Shown: in pieces, positions 2,598 to 11,416 of the stretch
How the letters are laid out: the number at the start of each line of letters is the position of its first letter
How positions within the stretch are numbered: position 1 is the first letter of the stretch
Virus record (IMG/VR): IMGVR_UViG_3300045581_001121
Coordinates: 1 to 22,436 of that record
Reading direction: 5' to 3' (one strand)
Length of the DNA stretch: 22,436 nt
From: a virus
Program-made: the position numbers and the translations under genes
Notes under the pieces: generated by a model
Told to the model about the DNA's origin: nothing
What the model saw: the letters and a program-made list of their open reading frames with translations, nothing else
The model's database searches: none

Positions 2598-3260
2598 TCA
2601 ACGGCCACGCTGAGCCAGCAGGGCCTCCACCGCCCGGGTGATGCGCGCTTCCGTGCTCTCCTCCTCCGGCATGGCCGCCGCAAGACGGCCCATCAGTGTC
2701 TGGAAATCGGTCAGGGCCTGCTGGTCTGGAAAGGTGAGCTGCACCGTCAGGCCGGCAGGGCCGGGCTCCGGAGCTTCTGGCTCTTGCGGGGGCGGCTCTG
2801 GATCGATGCCCTGAACGAGGGCCTTGAACTCATCGTCCGTGAACCAGGGACCCAGATCAAGGGTGGGGTGGTCCTCCAGCAGGCCCGCCAAGGCCGCGCC
2901 ATCGAACTCGCTCAGATCGCTGGCGCGGTTGTCGGCGACGCCATATTCGGCCTTCTGTGCCTCAGTGAGGTCCGTGCGCTGCACCGCGACCAGCGTGCGG
3001 CCATCAGCGGGCACCACCAGCACCTTCTCGATGCCGATGGCGGCGGCGGCCTCGGCAGTGCCGTTGCCGGCCAGGATCACGCCAGCCTCATCGATCACCA
3101 GACTCCTTGCGGCGCCGAACTCCTGCAGGGAGCGCTCGATCATCGCCGTGCTGCGCTGGGTGCGCCGCCGAGCGTTCTTGGGGTCCTGGATCAGAGCCTC
3201 CAGCGTGGTCTCGGTCGGCATGGTGACCGGGGCCAGAGAAGGGCGGCGACGCGTTGGCAT
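2598..3260 (-). CDS. ParB-like N-domain protein
   Basis: This protein of about 220 residues has the ParB/sulfiredoxin-like fold signature. A DPKNARRRT box comes near residue 24, then a helix AMIERSLQEFGAARSLVIDE, then GVILAGNGTAEAAAAIG and KVLVVP, with a TEAQKAEYGVADNRAS stretch typical of phage ParB-like proteins. A Pro/Glu-rich linker (PEPPPQEPEAPEPGP) separates it from a C-terminal helical domain. In phages such proteins occur beside terminases or methylases and may bind or nick DNA; the role here is inferred. The start is uncertain: ATG at 3260 or 3221, neither with a good Shine-Dalgarno. The frame runs upstream to 3431 but those residues look non-coding and overlap the divergent recombinase gene. 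Confidence 0.8.
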   Translation of the reverse strand: MPTRRRPSLAPVTMPTETTLEALIQDPKNARRRTQRSTAMIERSLQEFGAARSLVIDEAGVILAGNGTAEAAAAIGIEKVLVVPADGRTLVAVQRTDLTEAQKAEYGVADNRASDLSEFDGAALAGLLEDHPTLDLGPWFTDDEFKALVQGIDPEPPPQEPEAPEPGPAGLTVQLTFPDQQALTDFQTLMGRLAAAMPEEESTEARITRAVEALLAQRGR

Positions 3261-3323
3261 GAAAACGCAATCTGCGTGTAGCGCGTAACGTAGCTGCCTG
3301 GGAACATCCCTGTCACGGCACAC

Positions 3324-3343
3324 ACCACTGATCAAGGAGTGGT
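3324..3343. promoter_or_regulatory. Inverted repeat in the ParB-like/recombinase divergent gap
   Basis: ACCACT (3324-3329) and AGTGGT (3338-3343) are perfect 6-bp arms around GATCAAGG. The right arm partly covers the AGGAG motif (3335-3339) that would serve the TTG start at 3350, so binding or folding here could affect translation or transcription of the recombinase-like gene. It is short enough to be chance. Confidence 0.3.
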
Positions 3344-3349
3344 TTCCAC

Positions 3350-4192
3350 TTGCTAAAGCCTTCGCGATTGCCTTCTTCTGACAGGCTGAGAATCCTGCTG
3401 GAGACAGGCTTTTTCTGGTCTGAAGCGACAAGAGTCAGTGGTTTGTCGTTGATGGGCCTGCGCGGCTGGTGGTATCGAACGGGCTTGCAGATCTGTGATC
3501 CGGTCGACAGGGCGCTGGCGGAGCGACTAATACAAGCGAACTATCAGTTCAGCCCACCGCGGCTGTTTGATGGCCTGATGGTCTGCGGCAGATGCCGCGG
3601 CCGGATGACGAGGCCTGCACGAGCGCGCTCAGCTGGCAAGCCGCATCGGTGGGCCTGCCGCCGCTGCCGCACCAATGGCCGCCGAGTGTGGGTATCGGCC
3701 GCAGCCATCAAACGGGCCGTGTTCGAGGCGCTGCAGCGGCGGCTACCGGAGATGGCCCGGTTGTGTGAGCACCGCACCGGATTTCAGCACGAGCGGGAGC
3801 AGCGCTGGCTGGAGCAGCTGGAGCAGTTCCAAGCAATGGGGCAGCGACTGCATGAGGCAGGCGTGCCGCGCATGGCGCCCCAGGTGCTGGCGGCCCGGGT
3901 GCAACTGGCGCAGGATCAGCTGGGGGATCCGCCTGACCTGAACCGGCACGACTGGGGATCGACGTTCAGCAGCTGGGGGGCATGGGAGGGGGCCAGCTCA
4001 CACCAGTGGCGGATGGTGGCCGTCTTTTTCTGCCGGAAGGTCGTCTGGGATGGCGAGCGCCTCCAGGTGGTCCTGTTCGGCCGGCGCTTTGTCGATCCAT
4101 TGCTGATGGATGCCCAGCAGCACCCAGTTGATGGAGGTCTGTGGCCAGTTCACCCCCTCGCCCCGAGTCACCCTGCTCATCGGGAAGGGTGA
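3350..4192 (+). CDS. C-terminal part of a large serine recombinase (catalytic domain missing)
   Basis: The 280-residue product has the recombinase zinc beta-ribbon signature: FDGLMVCGRCRGRM near residues 73-86, then RWACRRC near 98-104, followed by a long coiled-coil-like helical region (about 115-185) rich in Glu, Gln, Arg and Leu. This arrangement is that of the DNA-binding half of large serine recombinases such as XisF-type enzymes. The N-terminal resolvase domain with the catalytic serine is absent, and the frame is closed by a stop at 3329-3331, so no upstream extension is possible. The TTG start has AGGAG 10-11 bases upstream, so a short product could still be made. The gene runs against its neighbours on both sides. 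It is either a remnant of an integration module or a stand-alone DNA-binding derivative. The first 60 residues are not recognisable. Confidence 0.6.
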   Translation: MLKPSRLPSSDRLRILLETGFFWSEATRVSGLSLMGLRGWWYRTGLQICDPVDRALAERLIQANYQFSPPRLFDGLMVCGRCRGRMTRPARARSAGKPHRWACRRCRTNGRRVWVSAAAIKRAVFEALQRRLPEMARLCEHRTGFQHEREQRWLEQLEQFQAMGQRLHEAGVPRMAPQVLAARVQLAQDQLGDPPDLNRHDWGSTFSSWGAWEGASSHQWRMVAVFFCRKVVWDGERLQVVLFGRRFVDPLLMDAQQHPVDGGLWPVHPLAPSHPAHREG

Positions 4193-6612: not shown

Positions 6613-6951
6613 TCACCAGTGCTCGGTGGGCTCCGCCGGCCCGATGGGTTCCGTGACTGGGATCCCAGTAACGGGCGCCGCGGCCGGTGCAGGAGCTGCA
6701 GCGACTGGCGTTGCCGCTGCCTCTTCCGTGGTCAGGAGCAGAGCCGTGGCCGCGGCCGTCTTCCAGACGCGACGATTGCCCATGGGCCTGAAGTCGTCAG
6801 CGACATGGAACCGGTACCCGCCGGCCCAGAAGTAGCGGCCCAGGTGCATGTCCACAGGCGCCTGGAAGGTCGGCGGAGCAGCAGGGTCGGTGATGGCGAC
6901 CATGGCGCCGAGGGGCGGGTGCTCGTGGGCAAGGGCGATGGGGGAAACCAT
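6613..6951 (-). CDS. Hypothetical protein with Ala/Pro-rich tail (112 aa)
   Basis: The start is ATG 6951, overlapping the previous stop as TGATG. The first 75 residues form a compact domain with aromatic residues (MHLGRYFWAGGYRFHVADDF). The C-terminal third is a low-complexity tail of Ala, Pro, Thr and Val (AAATPVAAAPAPAAAPVTG) ending in EPTEHW. Such tails are flexible linkers in phage proteins. No function is recognised. Confidence 0.6.
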   Translation of the reverse strand: MVSPIALAHEHPPLGAMVAITDPAAPPTFQAPVDMHLGRYFWAGGYRFHVADDFRPMGNRRVWKTAAATALLLTTEEAAATPVAAAPAPAAAPVTGIPVTEPIGPAEPTEHW

Positions 6952-7433
6952 CAGATCTCCTCCCTGCCCATCGAGGGCAGCAGGCCGGCAATGGCTTGCG
7001 GGGAGGCCTTGTGCAGACGGGCCTGCTCGGCAGTGACCTGCACCGCTGCGTAGGCCAGCTTGCGGCGGTTGCGGTGGATCGTGGCGATCGCCTCCTGGGG
7101 CAGCTCGCAACCGATCAGGCGGGCGCCAACGGCCGTTTCCACTCGACACGGGCCCGATGAATCGCGGAAGCCGCGGCCTGTGCCGGAATAGGCGGCTGTG
7201 CAGCAGCAGATCACGGCAGGATCAGACCCGACCATGCGCTCACCGGATGGGAGCACGTCGTAGTCCTCCAGGAACTCGTTGACCGCCAGGTCGTGGTTCG
7301 CGACGATGCCGGAATCGAAGCAGGCGAAACAGGCAACGCTGGGCAGCACAAAAGCAGGGCCGGCATGCGGACGGCGCTTATGCGCAGCCAACTCAGGAAG
7401 GCCAGCCGGACTTGGCGTGATGGAGGTTGTCAT
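6951..7433 (-). CDS. Hypothetical Cys-rich protein (160 aa)
   Basis: The ATG at 7433 overlaps the stop of the initiator-like gene as ATGA. The protein has two cysteine clusters: CFACFDSG near residues 35-42 and ICCCTAAYSG near 75-84, with further Cys at about 95 and 109. A metal site or disulfide cluster is possible. The C-terminal part (AIATIHRNRRKLAYAAVQVT) is helical and basic. No family is recognised. Its direct coupling to the initiator-like gene hints at a replication-associated role, but that is inference from position only. Confidence 0.65.
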   Translation of the reverse strand: MTTSITPSPAGLPELAAHKRRPHAGPAFVLPSVACFACFDSGIVANHDLAVNEFLEDYDVLPSGERMVGSDPAVICCCTAAYSGTGRGFRDSSGPCRVETAVGARLIGCELPQEAIATIHRNRRKLAYAAVQVTAEQARLHKASPQAIAGLLPSMGREEI

Positions 7434-8773
7434 CGGCCAGTGATGTGGCGGTGGTAGGCGAAGGGATCGGACTCACCGGTTTCTGGATCGATTGGAGCCA
7501 CGAAGGTGGCCGCGGCCACAACGGCTGCGGGCTGGTTCTGGGGCAGGTAGGCCACGAAACGGCGCTCCTTCAGCCAGCGAGCCATGTCCGGGAGGGAGGG
7601 AGCAAAGCCCGTGTCGGCTTGCTGCTGCTCCTGGGCCTGGACCTCAGCAGCAAGAGCGGCCAGCAGTTGATCGACGGTGTGGCCAGCGGCCAGGACGGCA
7701 CCCAGTTCGCGCTGGGCAGCAGGCAGGGATTGACAGGTGACCCGACGCGGAGCGGCCAGGTAGGCGCCGCGCAGCTGTTCAAAGGCCTCGGCAGCAGCTG
7801 GGCCGGCCCGCAGCTGCTCGCAGCGGCGCCGGTAGCCGGTGGCAAGGGACTTGCAACCACTGGCCGCGGCGTGCTGGAGGAACGGCTCCAGAACGCCGAG
7901 AGCGTCGGCGTGGTGGATGGCTTGGACGTCCGCGGCGCTGAGCTCGCGTGAAGCGGCGGGATGCTTCTGGCGGCGGCGGGTCCACCACTCCACCAGCAGC
8001 TGGCGATGGGGCCTGGCGCAGGCGGGCAGGCCGGCCTGCTGGCCTGCGGCCTGGGCGGTGGGCTGCTCGGTGGCAGGGGAGCAGGAAGCGCTGGCGGCCG
8101 GTTCGGCATGTCGCTGGGGAGCGTCGTTCTGGCCTGACGTTACCACGATCTGCCGATCTGTCACGACGGCGCCAGCCGTTGTGACCAGGGGTGCGGTGGC
8201 CAAGCTGTTTTCAACTCGTTGGGACATATATGTGTTTGGGATAGGTATTAACTCTTCTAGGTTTTCTAACTCTTCGTTTAAGGGTTTATTGATTGGGTCC
8301 CCCTGTGGGGGAGTCCCCCTGTGGGGGAGGGGTACCCCTGTAGGGCCTCCCCTACAGGGGGAGGGGTGCCCCTGCGGGGCCTCCCCTGCAGGGGGACTCC
8401 CCTTGTAGGGGAGGGGTGCTGCTGACTTCCGTTCTGCTGCAGTGGATTTGGGGCGCGATCGTTTGCGCTTTGTCTCCATCCGCACCCGATAGACGTTGGT
8501 GCCTCTTGGTCCGGTGCCGGCTTTGATGATCCAGCCCTCGTCCAGAAGGGTCTGAAGGGCTGCTCGGATGTCTCGTTCCTTCATGCCGCACTCCAGCGCC
8601 AGGCGCGGGACAGAAGGGAAGGCGTTATCATTCTGTCCGGCGTAAAACCACAGCCAGGCATAAACAAATACCAGGCGTCTTCTGCCCCTTTCAGCTGAAC
8701 TGCTCAGCAGTTCCAGCGGGATCTGAGCAAACAGCGGGCGGTGCAGTTCGCCGTTGAATGGTGCGGTTGGCAT
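7430..8773 (-). CDS. Winged-helix replication-initiator-like protein
   Basis: The N-terminal 100 residues match the HTH_36-type winged helix of phage and plasmid replication initiators: FVYAWLWFYAGQNDNAFPSV, then LALECGMKERDIRAALQTLL, then DEGWIIKAG and NVYRV for the wing. A low-complexity Pro/Gly linker follows (about residues 120-160), encoded by the palindrome array at 8299-8411. The C-terminal 200 residues are helical (VEWWTRRRQKHP, AADVQAIHHADALGVLEPFL) and may contact helicase or primase. The role by family is binding the origin and recruiting the replisome. Start: ATG 8773; GTG 8800 would add nine residues, and neither has a well-placed Shine-Dalgarno. It is the first gene of the leftward cluster. 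Confidence 0.75.
   Translation of the reverse strand: MPTAPFNGELHRPLFAQIPLELLSSSAERGRRRLVFVYAWLWFYAGQNDNAFPSVPRLALECGMKERDIRAALQTLLDEGWIIKAGTGPRGTNVYRVRMETKRKRSRPKSTAAERKSAAPLPYKGSPPAGEAPQGHPSPCRGGPTGVPLPHRGTPPQGDPINKPLNEELENLEELIPIPNTYMSQRVENSLATAPLVTTAGAVVTDRQIVVTSGQNDAPQRHAEPAASASCSPATEQPTAQAAGQQAGLPACARPHRQLLVEWWTRRRQKHPAASRELSAADVQAIHHADALGVLEPFLQHAAASGCKSLATGYRRRCEQLRAGPAAAEAFEQLRGAYLAAPRRVTCQSLPAAQRELGAVLAAGHTVDQLLAALAAEVQAQEQQQADTGFAPSLPDMARWLKERRFVAYLPQNQPAAVVAAATFVAPIDPETGESDPFAYHRHITGR
8299..8411. repeat. Array of seven GC-rich palindromes inside the initiator gene (candidate origin iterons)
   Basis: Seven units of the form CCCC(C)TGTRGGGG(G) lie at 8299-8311, 8315-8327, 8335-8345, 8349-8361, 8369-8379, 8383-8395 and 8399-8411, spaced about 14-20 bases centre to centre. 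Units 3 and 4 are inverted copies with 11-bp perfect arms and a 4-base loop (8346-8349). Units 5 and 6 form a similar pair. The blocks 8328-8361 and 8362-8395 are 34-bp tandem copies differing at four positions. The array lies between the winged-helix and C-terminal domains of the encoded protein. Spacing is not kept to multiples of three, so the units are read in different codon phases. This points to DNA-level function (origin or protein binding) or a mobile palindromic repeat. Confidence 0.85.
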
Positions 8774-9165
8774 GGCAGAAGCTGGTGTGGTTTCTTCCAC
8801 TCCCCTAGACCTGCTGCTTGCGTTGGATGCAGTAAGATGAGCCTGTTGCGGCCATCAGATTCGCTGGGGAGCGTGGCTGGTGGTCGCAGCCCGAAAGGGC
8901 AACATTGGCTCCGCCTCCCAGGCGGGGCCTTTGTTGTGGGCGGGTAACCGACCAGTCGACCGCAACCATAGCCGTATCGGGATGCCGCGACTCGGGACTG
9001 TTCCCAATCTGTTGCCGCCGGTGGCGCTGCACGGTGCCGCGAGGACGGTGCGGTTTCCCTGCCCATGGCTGCAGGAGGGCTGCACCGAGGTTCTTCACAG
9101 TGTCGATAGGACTTATGTTCGGGGCCGAACAGGCCTGTTTCCCATCGCCGCGCTCAAAGGTCGCC
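8774..9165. promoter_or_regulatory. Divergent control region between initiator and rightward genes
   Basis: These roughly 390 bases separate the leftward initiator gene from the rightward gene at 9166 and must hold the promoters of both. The + strand has a TAAGAT box at 8831-8836 without a convincing -35 element, a GCCC-GAAA-GGGC hairpin (8889-8900) and a strong terminator hairpin (8907-8935). Short frames occur here (for example ATG 8837 to 8947), but the terminator lies inside them and they do not look coding. No clear operator was identified. Confidence 0.55.
8907..8935 (+). terminator. Rho-independent terminator without an obvious upstream gene
   Basis: GGCTCCGCCT, loop CCC, then AGGCGGGGCC form a 10-bp stem with one G-U pair, followed by TTTGTT. 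A GNRA-type hairpin (8889-8900) lies just upstream. No coding gene on this strand precedes it, so it would end a short RNA of about 100 bases or act as an attenuator in the leader of the gene at 9166. Confidence 0.7.
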
Positions 9166-10369: not shown

Positions 10370-10456
10370 ACCGGTCTGGTGATTAGTGCTAGTGTTCGGT
10401 GGCCGGTGTGGCAGAGCGTAGCCAGGCCGCGCCCAACCCAACCAGCAACGTTCGTG

Positions 10457-11416
10457 ATGGACAGCATTCCGCGCACGGGGCCACCAGCTGACCAGGCGCC
10501 GCAGCAGCCCCTGCCCGCAGCCAGTGATCCGATCACCCAGACCGTGCTCGAGCTGGCCGATCGGCTGGCGGCTGCTGAGGCAGACACAGCAAACCGCTTC
10601 GAGAGCATGCGAGCGGCATTCGCTGATCTTCGCAACCGACTGGAGTCACAGCGTGGGACCAGCAGCAGCACAGATGATCCGCGCCGTCGGTTGGTGGAGT
10701 TCCTGGGGTATGAGCCCAGTTCACAGCAGCAGATTGAACTGTTCACTGCCTATGCAGCCTGGCATGCGACTCAGCCCAGGCTTCAGGAGAACCGCTCGGC
10801 CGAATACGTGACCAAAAAGGGCCAGACGGTCAGCTATGGCTATGCCGATCTGGCAGGAGTGATCTCCGCAGCCCAGAGCGCTGCTGCGCATGGGCTCTGT
10901 GCGCTCACCAGACAGGAGTTCGACGACAACGGCCACCCGATCGTGACCGCCTACCTGGTTCACTCCAGCGGTGGTGCGATCAGCAGCGGGCCAGTGCCGC
11001 TGTTTGTGGGTGACAGCGAACGCCGCGGCCAGGCGCACGCCGCAGGGCTCACCACCTGCCGGCGCCTGGCGCTGCAGATGGTGCTCGGCCTGGCTGCTGA
11101 GAGCGACGACGACTTCAACTCCAGCACCGAGACATCACCTGCTGGCCGTGGTGCTGCATCACGGCCAGCTGCAGCAGCGCACCGGCCCAGCGGTGAGAGG
11201 CCGATGGCCAACCCGCCGCGCCGCGTGTCGGAAGCCACTGCACGTCCGGCGACAACTCGCCAGGGACCGCCGCCCGGCTGGCTCAGCAAGGAGGAGCACA
11301 CGGCGCTGGAGCAGGAGCTGATGGATCCAGCCATCACCCCGCAGCGCTTCCAGGAGATTGAGGAGAGGCTTCTGGCTGCCAAGCAAACGGCCAGCGCTGG
11401 GCCAGCAGGGCCATGA
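10457..11416 (+). CDS. ERF-family single-strand annealing protein
   Basis: Proteins of the ERF superfamily anneal complementary single strands in phage recombination and replication. The ERF core lies at about residues 93-222: QTVSYGYADLAGVISAAQSA, AAHGLCALTRQEF, TAYLVHSSGGAISSGPVPL and HAAGLTTCRRLALQMVLGLA, then AESDDDFN. This is the family order (YADL motif, LVHSSG strand, YARRYAL-like helix, acidic end). The N-terminal 90 residues are helical (LADRLAAAEADTANRFESMR). The tail holds a Pro/Ala/Arg linker and a charged helix. I chose ATG 10457; residues encoded upstream look non-coding. The start has no Shine-Dalgarno, like several rightward genes here. Assignment is firm from motifs; in vivo activity is inferred. 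Confidence 0.88.
   Translation: MDSIPRTGPPADQAPQQPLPAASDPITQTVLELADRLAAAEADTANRFESMRAAFADLRNRLESQRGTSSSTDDPRRRLVEFLGYEPSSQQQIELFTAYAAWHATQPRLQENRSAEYVTKKGQTVSYGYADLAGVISAAQSAAAHGLCALTRQEFDDNGHPIVTAYLVHSSGGAISSGPVPLFVGDSERRGQAHAAGLTTCRRLALQMVLGLAAESDDDFNSSTETSPAGRGAASRPAAAAHRPSGERPMANPPRRVSEATARPATTRQGPPPGWLSKEEHTALEQELMDPAITPQRFQEIEERLLAAKQTASAGPAGP

Follow-up and report, generated by a model that had tools for sequence, protein, structure and literature searches.

A candidate lambda-type replication origin inside the initiator gene of a cyanophage-like virus

In-gene origins and the initiator gene of the window

Lambdoid phages have their replication origin midway along gene O, where the iterons, each of which is an inverted repeat, are followed by an AT-rich region (PMC7466680). 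O dimers on adjacent iterons form the O-some, to which P–DnaB is then added (PMC3985674). Among plasmids, pSK41 has its ori centrally within rep, and the linker encoded there is dispensable (PMC5703833). The iterons in the lambda phage record are CCCTCAAAACGAGGG-like inverted repeats with a short centre.

We analysed the IMG/VR virus record IMGVR_UViG_3300045581_001121 over positions 1 to 22,436; this entire stretch of 22,436 bases is referred to here as the window. The virus is a relative of viruses infecting photosynthetic bacteria (cyanophage-like). The features discussed are as follows.

7430..8800, minus strand: initiator gene, an ORF of 456 aa with a GTG start at 8800
8528..8665, minus strand: HTH_36 winged-helix region (aa 46-91, PF13730, E 2.5e-8)
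8298..8413, minus strand: palindrome array, iteron candidates; seven CCCC-N3-5-GGG(G) units, 14-20 bp apart
8246..8295, minus strand: AT-rich tract, candidate DNA unwinding element; 70% AT, gene-strand AATCAATAAACCCTTAAACGAAGA...
8112..8123, minus strand: in-gene copy of the inverted repeat CGCTCCCCAGCG, past the AT-rich tract
8862..8873, minus strand: second copy of CGCTCCCCAGCG, ~60 bp upstream of the GTG start

The initiator gene is 65% GC and has a conserved in-frame ATG at codon 10. Its product matches PHROG 270/391/1032/678 (replication initiation / O-like; best E 7.5e-10) and is composed, from N- to C-terminus, of a winged helix, a disordered linker and a helical C-terminal region. As in a lambda-type in-gene origin, an O-like initiator (PHROG) carries an N-terminal HTH (HTH_36), and this winged-helix region is proposed to be the iteron-binding domain. 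The AlphaFold model of the initiator is poor overall, with a mean pLDDT of 51; values fall below 50 for aa 89-256, which form the linker, and the C-terminal part is mostly helical from aa ~260. Structure comparison superposed aa 33-90 of the model on winged-helix structures with Z 6-7, a very common fold, therefore no family was read from this result. None of the solved structures matches the initiator by sequence, and its C-terminal half is without a family match among Pfam-type and PHROG profiles. A protein search of 84,980 prokaryote genomes returned no relative of the initiator, and phage records searched at the DNA level gave no match. The initiator is flanked on one side by an Erf-like single-strand annealing protein gene (10379-11416, plus strand; PF04404, E 7.5e-8) and on the other by a ParB-like partition protein gene (2598-3431, minus strand; phrog_620, E 5.5e-24).

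The palindrome array and its surroundings

The initial annotation had described seven GC-rich palindromes inside a gene for a replication-initiator-like protein, between its winged-helix and C-terminal regions. The seven palindromes are confirmed as a block at 8298-8413, 2 bases past the end first given (8411), with unit centres near 8305, 8321, 8341, 8355, 8374, 8389 and 8405. The gene identity and the placement were also right. The array spans codons ~128-169 (390-510 nt into the gene), inside the predicted disordered linker, between HTH_36 (aa 46-91) and the helical C-terminal region (aa ~260 on). Tandem inverted-repeat units between the two protein regions of the initiator are a further feature of a lambda-type in-gene origin. 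The junctions between units are palindromic as well (GGGGGAGTCCCCC, AGGGGTACCCCT), the hairpin potential of the array is strong, and just two more CCCC-N3-5-GGGG matches occur elsewhere in the 22 kb.

The units occupy all three reading frames, and are translated as PYKG, PAGE, PQG, CRG and HRG. When the protein was held fixed and the gene recoded synonymously with its own codon usage, the summed arm length averaged 7.0, compared to the observed 35, which 0 of 10,000 recodings reached. Reshuffling just the synonymous codons already within the array gave a mean of 19.6, and 67 of 10,000 shuffles reached 35. A dinucleotide shuffle of the array alone (observed 6, shuffle mean 2.7, maximum 24) was discarded as a poor control, because C and G runs readily make palindromes.

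In gene orientation, AATCAATAAACCCTTAAACGAAGAG... comes directly after the array; no other 50-mer of the gene is as AT-rich. Because the gene is encoded by the minus strand, the window coordinates of this tract are lower than those of the array. Third-position AT is 0.65 in the tract versus 0.31. In each of the 12 genes tested, lambda included, the most AT-rich 50-mer was located at the array's 3' end or just past it. An A+T-rich region directly adjoining the iterons is again as expected for a lambda-type in-gene origin, and makes the tract a candidate for unwinding. Several homologues with quite different arrays (L067, L092, L095, L097 and others) have the motif AACAAGAACCC repeated in the neighbouring AT-rich tract, where it could act as a shared single-strand or helicase-loading signal.

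The inverted repeat CGCTCCCCAGCG, read on the gene strand, has exactly two copies in the window, and these bracket the proposed origin. The pair is found at the same two places in relatives, ~740 bp apart, with 1-2 changes in the upstream copy of some, and synonymous conservation peaks again, at 0.93, around the in-gene copy. A scan of six related records (43-69 kb) turned up a single additional copy, and the reversed control pattern gave no match there. CGCTCCCCAGCG may be the site of a regulator, possibly as part of origin control. To our knowledge, such a pair has no counterpart as a control element. Further upstream, on the plus strand at 8885-8945, a GC-rich hairpin (GGCTCCGCCTCCCAGGCGGGGCC) with TTTGTTG after it resembles a terminator; in relatives, too, a hairpin of this sort precedes the initiator.

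Conservation and exchange of the array among relatives

Some twenty loci of the window's initiator gene are present in IMG/VR, most of them full-length. Every relative that reaches the linker has the array at the same place, with changed unit centres and sometimes changed arms; the unit of L018 and L025 is CCCCGTTACGGGG. A close relative without the array, named in the initial annotation as an outcome that would count against an origin, was not encountered among those covering the linker. Over ten relatives, the share of comparisons with identical synonymous codons was 65% for the whole gene. It reached 94% at one end of the array and 89% at the other, the AT-rich tract gave 87-93%, and the middle of the array was near the gene average (67-72%). 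This pattern fits turnover of the units while the array and tract persist. A synonymous test using an automatically chosen window per gene gave a weak or absent palindrome excess over synonymous shuffles in L029, L032, L033, L038 and others; that test is biased by picking the best stretch, and our conclusions use the anatomically fixed test alone.

The next family out is represented by CPKG_00028 of Cyanophage KBS-S-2A, a Synechococcus phage, where it is annotated as a hypothetical protein. CPKG_00028 is O-like by PHROG 678 (E 1.2e-17) and is ~32% identical to the window's initiator over the N-terminal 105 aa. Like the window, it combines an O-like initiator with a repeat array and an AT-rich tract at the same place: its linker contains CCCCAAAAGG-type repeats, then AATAAAAACCCAGTAAAAGAAAACCC. 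Unlike the window, its unit is CCCCCAAAAGGTGG, spaced about every 24 bp, and the C-terminal region is different. At the same linker position, relatives of KBS-S-2A have arrays of AGGTCGAAAACGACCT, CCCCTNNCAAAAACGNNAGGGG, ACCAAAAGGTCAT, TACCGGATYCRGTA or GGTTCAAAAATGAACC. Related initiator genes with same-place arrays of different units, the outcome for which the initial annotation had suggested a search, are therefore found in KBS-S-2A and its relatives. Some homologues have A-tract-centred units that resemble the double-stranded iterons of lambda.

The unit of one homologue (L037), AGGTCGAAAACGACC, encodes GRKRP, RSKTT or QVENDL depending on the reading frame, all within a single gene, so only DNA can be what is kept there. 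All three frames are also used by the iterons of lambda. Together, the reading frames, the conserved synonymous codons and the excess of palindromes over recodings show that DNA rather than protein is selected at the array.

Across 35 distinct genes of the KBS group, array similarity rose with winged-helix identity (r=0.71; Mantel 0/2000 permutations). Few independent switches (five unit classes) lie behind this linkage, and joint transfer explains part of it and could even account for it unaided, as the HTH and array are neighbours. Compared to identity of the C-terminal domain, r was -0.07, and the pairs L092/L095, L064/L069 and L065/L073 have an identical C-terminal segment (100%) yet unrelated arrays. 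The recognition helix and the unit change together: SRKxxQR occurs with AGGTCGAAAACGACCT (AGGTC...GACCT), and SQFVIRR pairs with CCCCTNNCAAAAACGNNAGGGG (CCCCT...AGGGG). Linkage of unit and HTH is what would be expected if a protein recognised the origin within its own gene. Tentatively, the winged helix and array may form a portable specificity cassette, exchanged as a block before a constant C-terminal domain, which would give mutually non-interfering origin types and a readable protein–DNA code, with the origin of the window's family bracketed by the CGCTCCCCAGCG pair of control elements; this composite proposal is possible rather than probable. A further set of homologues (L108-L137, e.g. 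L122 and L125) has the KBS-type C-terminal domain DLLxEFWxxKKGT joined to a different, ribbon-helix-helix-like N-terminal part. Its linker has no obvious iteron array and instead contains a conserved hairpin-like GGGAG...CTCCC.

Origin reading, rival explanations and known systems

The array and the adjoining AT-rich tract most likely constitute the replication origin of the virus, placed inside its initiator gene in the manner of ori-lambda. The initial annotation had proposed an in-gene candidate origin, and this proposal is favoured at the level of sequence by related initiator genes in which arrays built from other units occupy this position beside an AT-rich tract. In the mechanism we envisage, dimers of the N-terminal winged helix would bind the palindromic units, and adjacent dimers would pack into an O-some-like complex that melts the AT-rich tract. 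The C-terminal region would then recruit the replicative helicase, probably host DnaB, through a loader, while the array-encoded linker would serve as a disordered tether whose sequence is tolerated, not selected. Seven related records contain no DnaB-type helicase (DnaB_C), and no P-like helicase loader was recognised; the ORF downstream of the initiator (6951-7433) has phrog_35089 as its sole match, without an assigned function. GC skew, which had been suggested as a check, lends no support. It flips sign near the initiator gene in the window and in KBS-S-2A, coinciding with divergent transcription, and the sign change is opposite to that of a classical origin, as divergent transcription expects.

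Three other explanations were weighed against an origin. The initial annotation had named a mobile palindromic repeat as its main alternative, that is, a REP/RPE-like element inserted in frame into the linker, and short GC-rich palindromes in tandem within a tolerant linker are in keeping with such an insertion. However, a two-unit pattern matched 10 contigs among 2.9 million viral contigs, all carrying the window's initiator gene, and a looser pattern gave 7 scattered, unrelated, non-cyanobacterial matches in 84,980 genomes. In these scans the palindromes are not a feature of unrelated loci. In addition, neither the window nor seven related records contain a second or comparable array elsewhere, and homologues have a changed unit sequence at the same place, such that a mobile repeat is nearly excluded. 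Selection on the protein would account for the array if a Pro/Gly-rich low-complexity linker happened to use codons that yield palindromes. The linkers of the window's close family are indeed Pro/Gly in composition, and the in-region synonymous shuffles keep many palindromes (mean 19.6 of 35), but the presence of units in three frames, the conservation of synonymous codons and the quite different linker residues of homologues with the same layout (e.g. RSKTTY, QVENDL) make this explanation extremely improbable.

The array could also be an autoregulatory operator, or an RNA or ssDNA hairpin element such as an attenuator or primosome assembly site, instead of an origin. Its strong hairpin potential and the second conserved inverted repeat flanking the region, CGCTCCCCAGCG, are compatible with this, and initiators often autoregulate. 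Conversely, 390-510 nt inside the gene is an unusual position for an operator, the array is linked to the HTH domain and has an AT-rich neighbour, and the A-tract-centred units of homologues resemble the double-stranded iterons of lambda. Overall, an origin accounts better than such a role for the AT-rich neighbour and for the cassette behaviour, and we consider the operator or hairpin reading unlikely, although not to the degree of the two preceding explanations.

As an origin, the locus would place candidates in a virus group where none was found described: a non-exhaustive search of the cyanosiphovirus literature found no description of an origin, and the KBS-S-2A gene is annotated as hypothetical. 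It also suggests a rule by which origins in O-like genes could be located from sequence alone: one unit recurs in several reading frames, and the gene's most AT-rich tract comes next. The swapped pairs of winged helix and iteron provide a natural series for direct tests of initiator–origin specificity.

Compared to known systems, RepA_N-type plasmid initiators (pSK41) share with the window an origin within the initiator's own coding region. They differ in initiator family and replicon type, and the domain search gave no match to them. Ori-lambda and the origins of Stx lambdoid phages are closer, as they have inverted-repeat units in the initiator linker, read in several frames and followed by an A+T-rich tract; they also share the N-terminal HTH domain of the initiator. 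Unlike lambda, the window has no recognised P-like loader downstream, and no match was found between the C-terminal regions. The window's array has seven closely packed GC-rich units with a 3-5 bp centre, 14-20 bp spacing and no A-tract centre, whereas the lambda array consists of four units of 18-19 bp that contain an A-tract, and thus has fewer copies and a longer centre. The units had been annotated as unlike lambda iterons. This stands for their sequence and not for their kind, since lambda iterons are themselves inverted repeats (PMC7466680). The locus is very probably a lambda-type origin of the known kind, here with different recognition signals.
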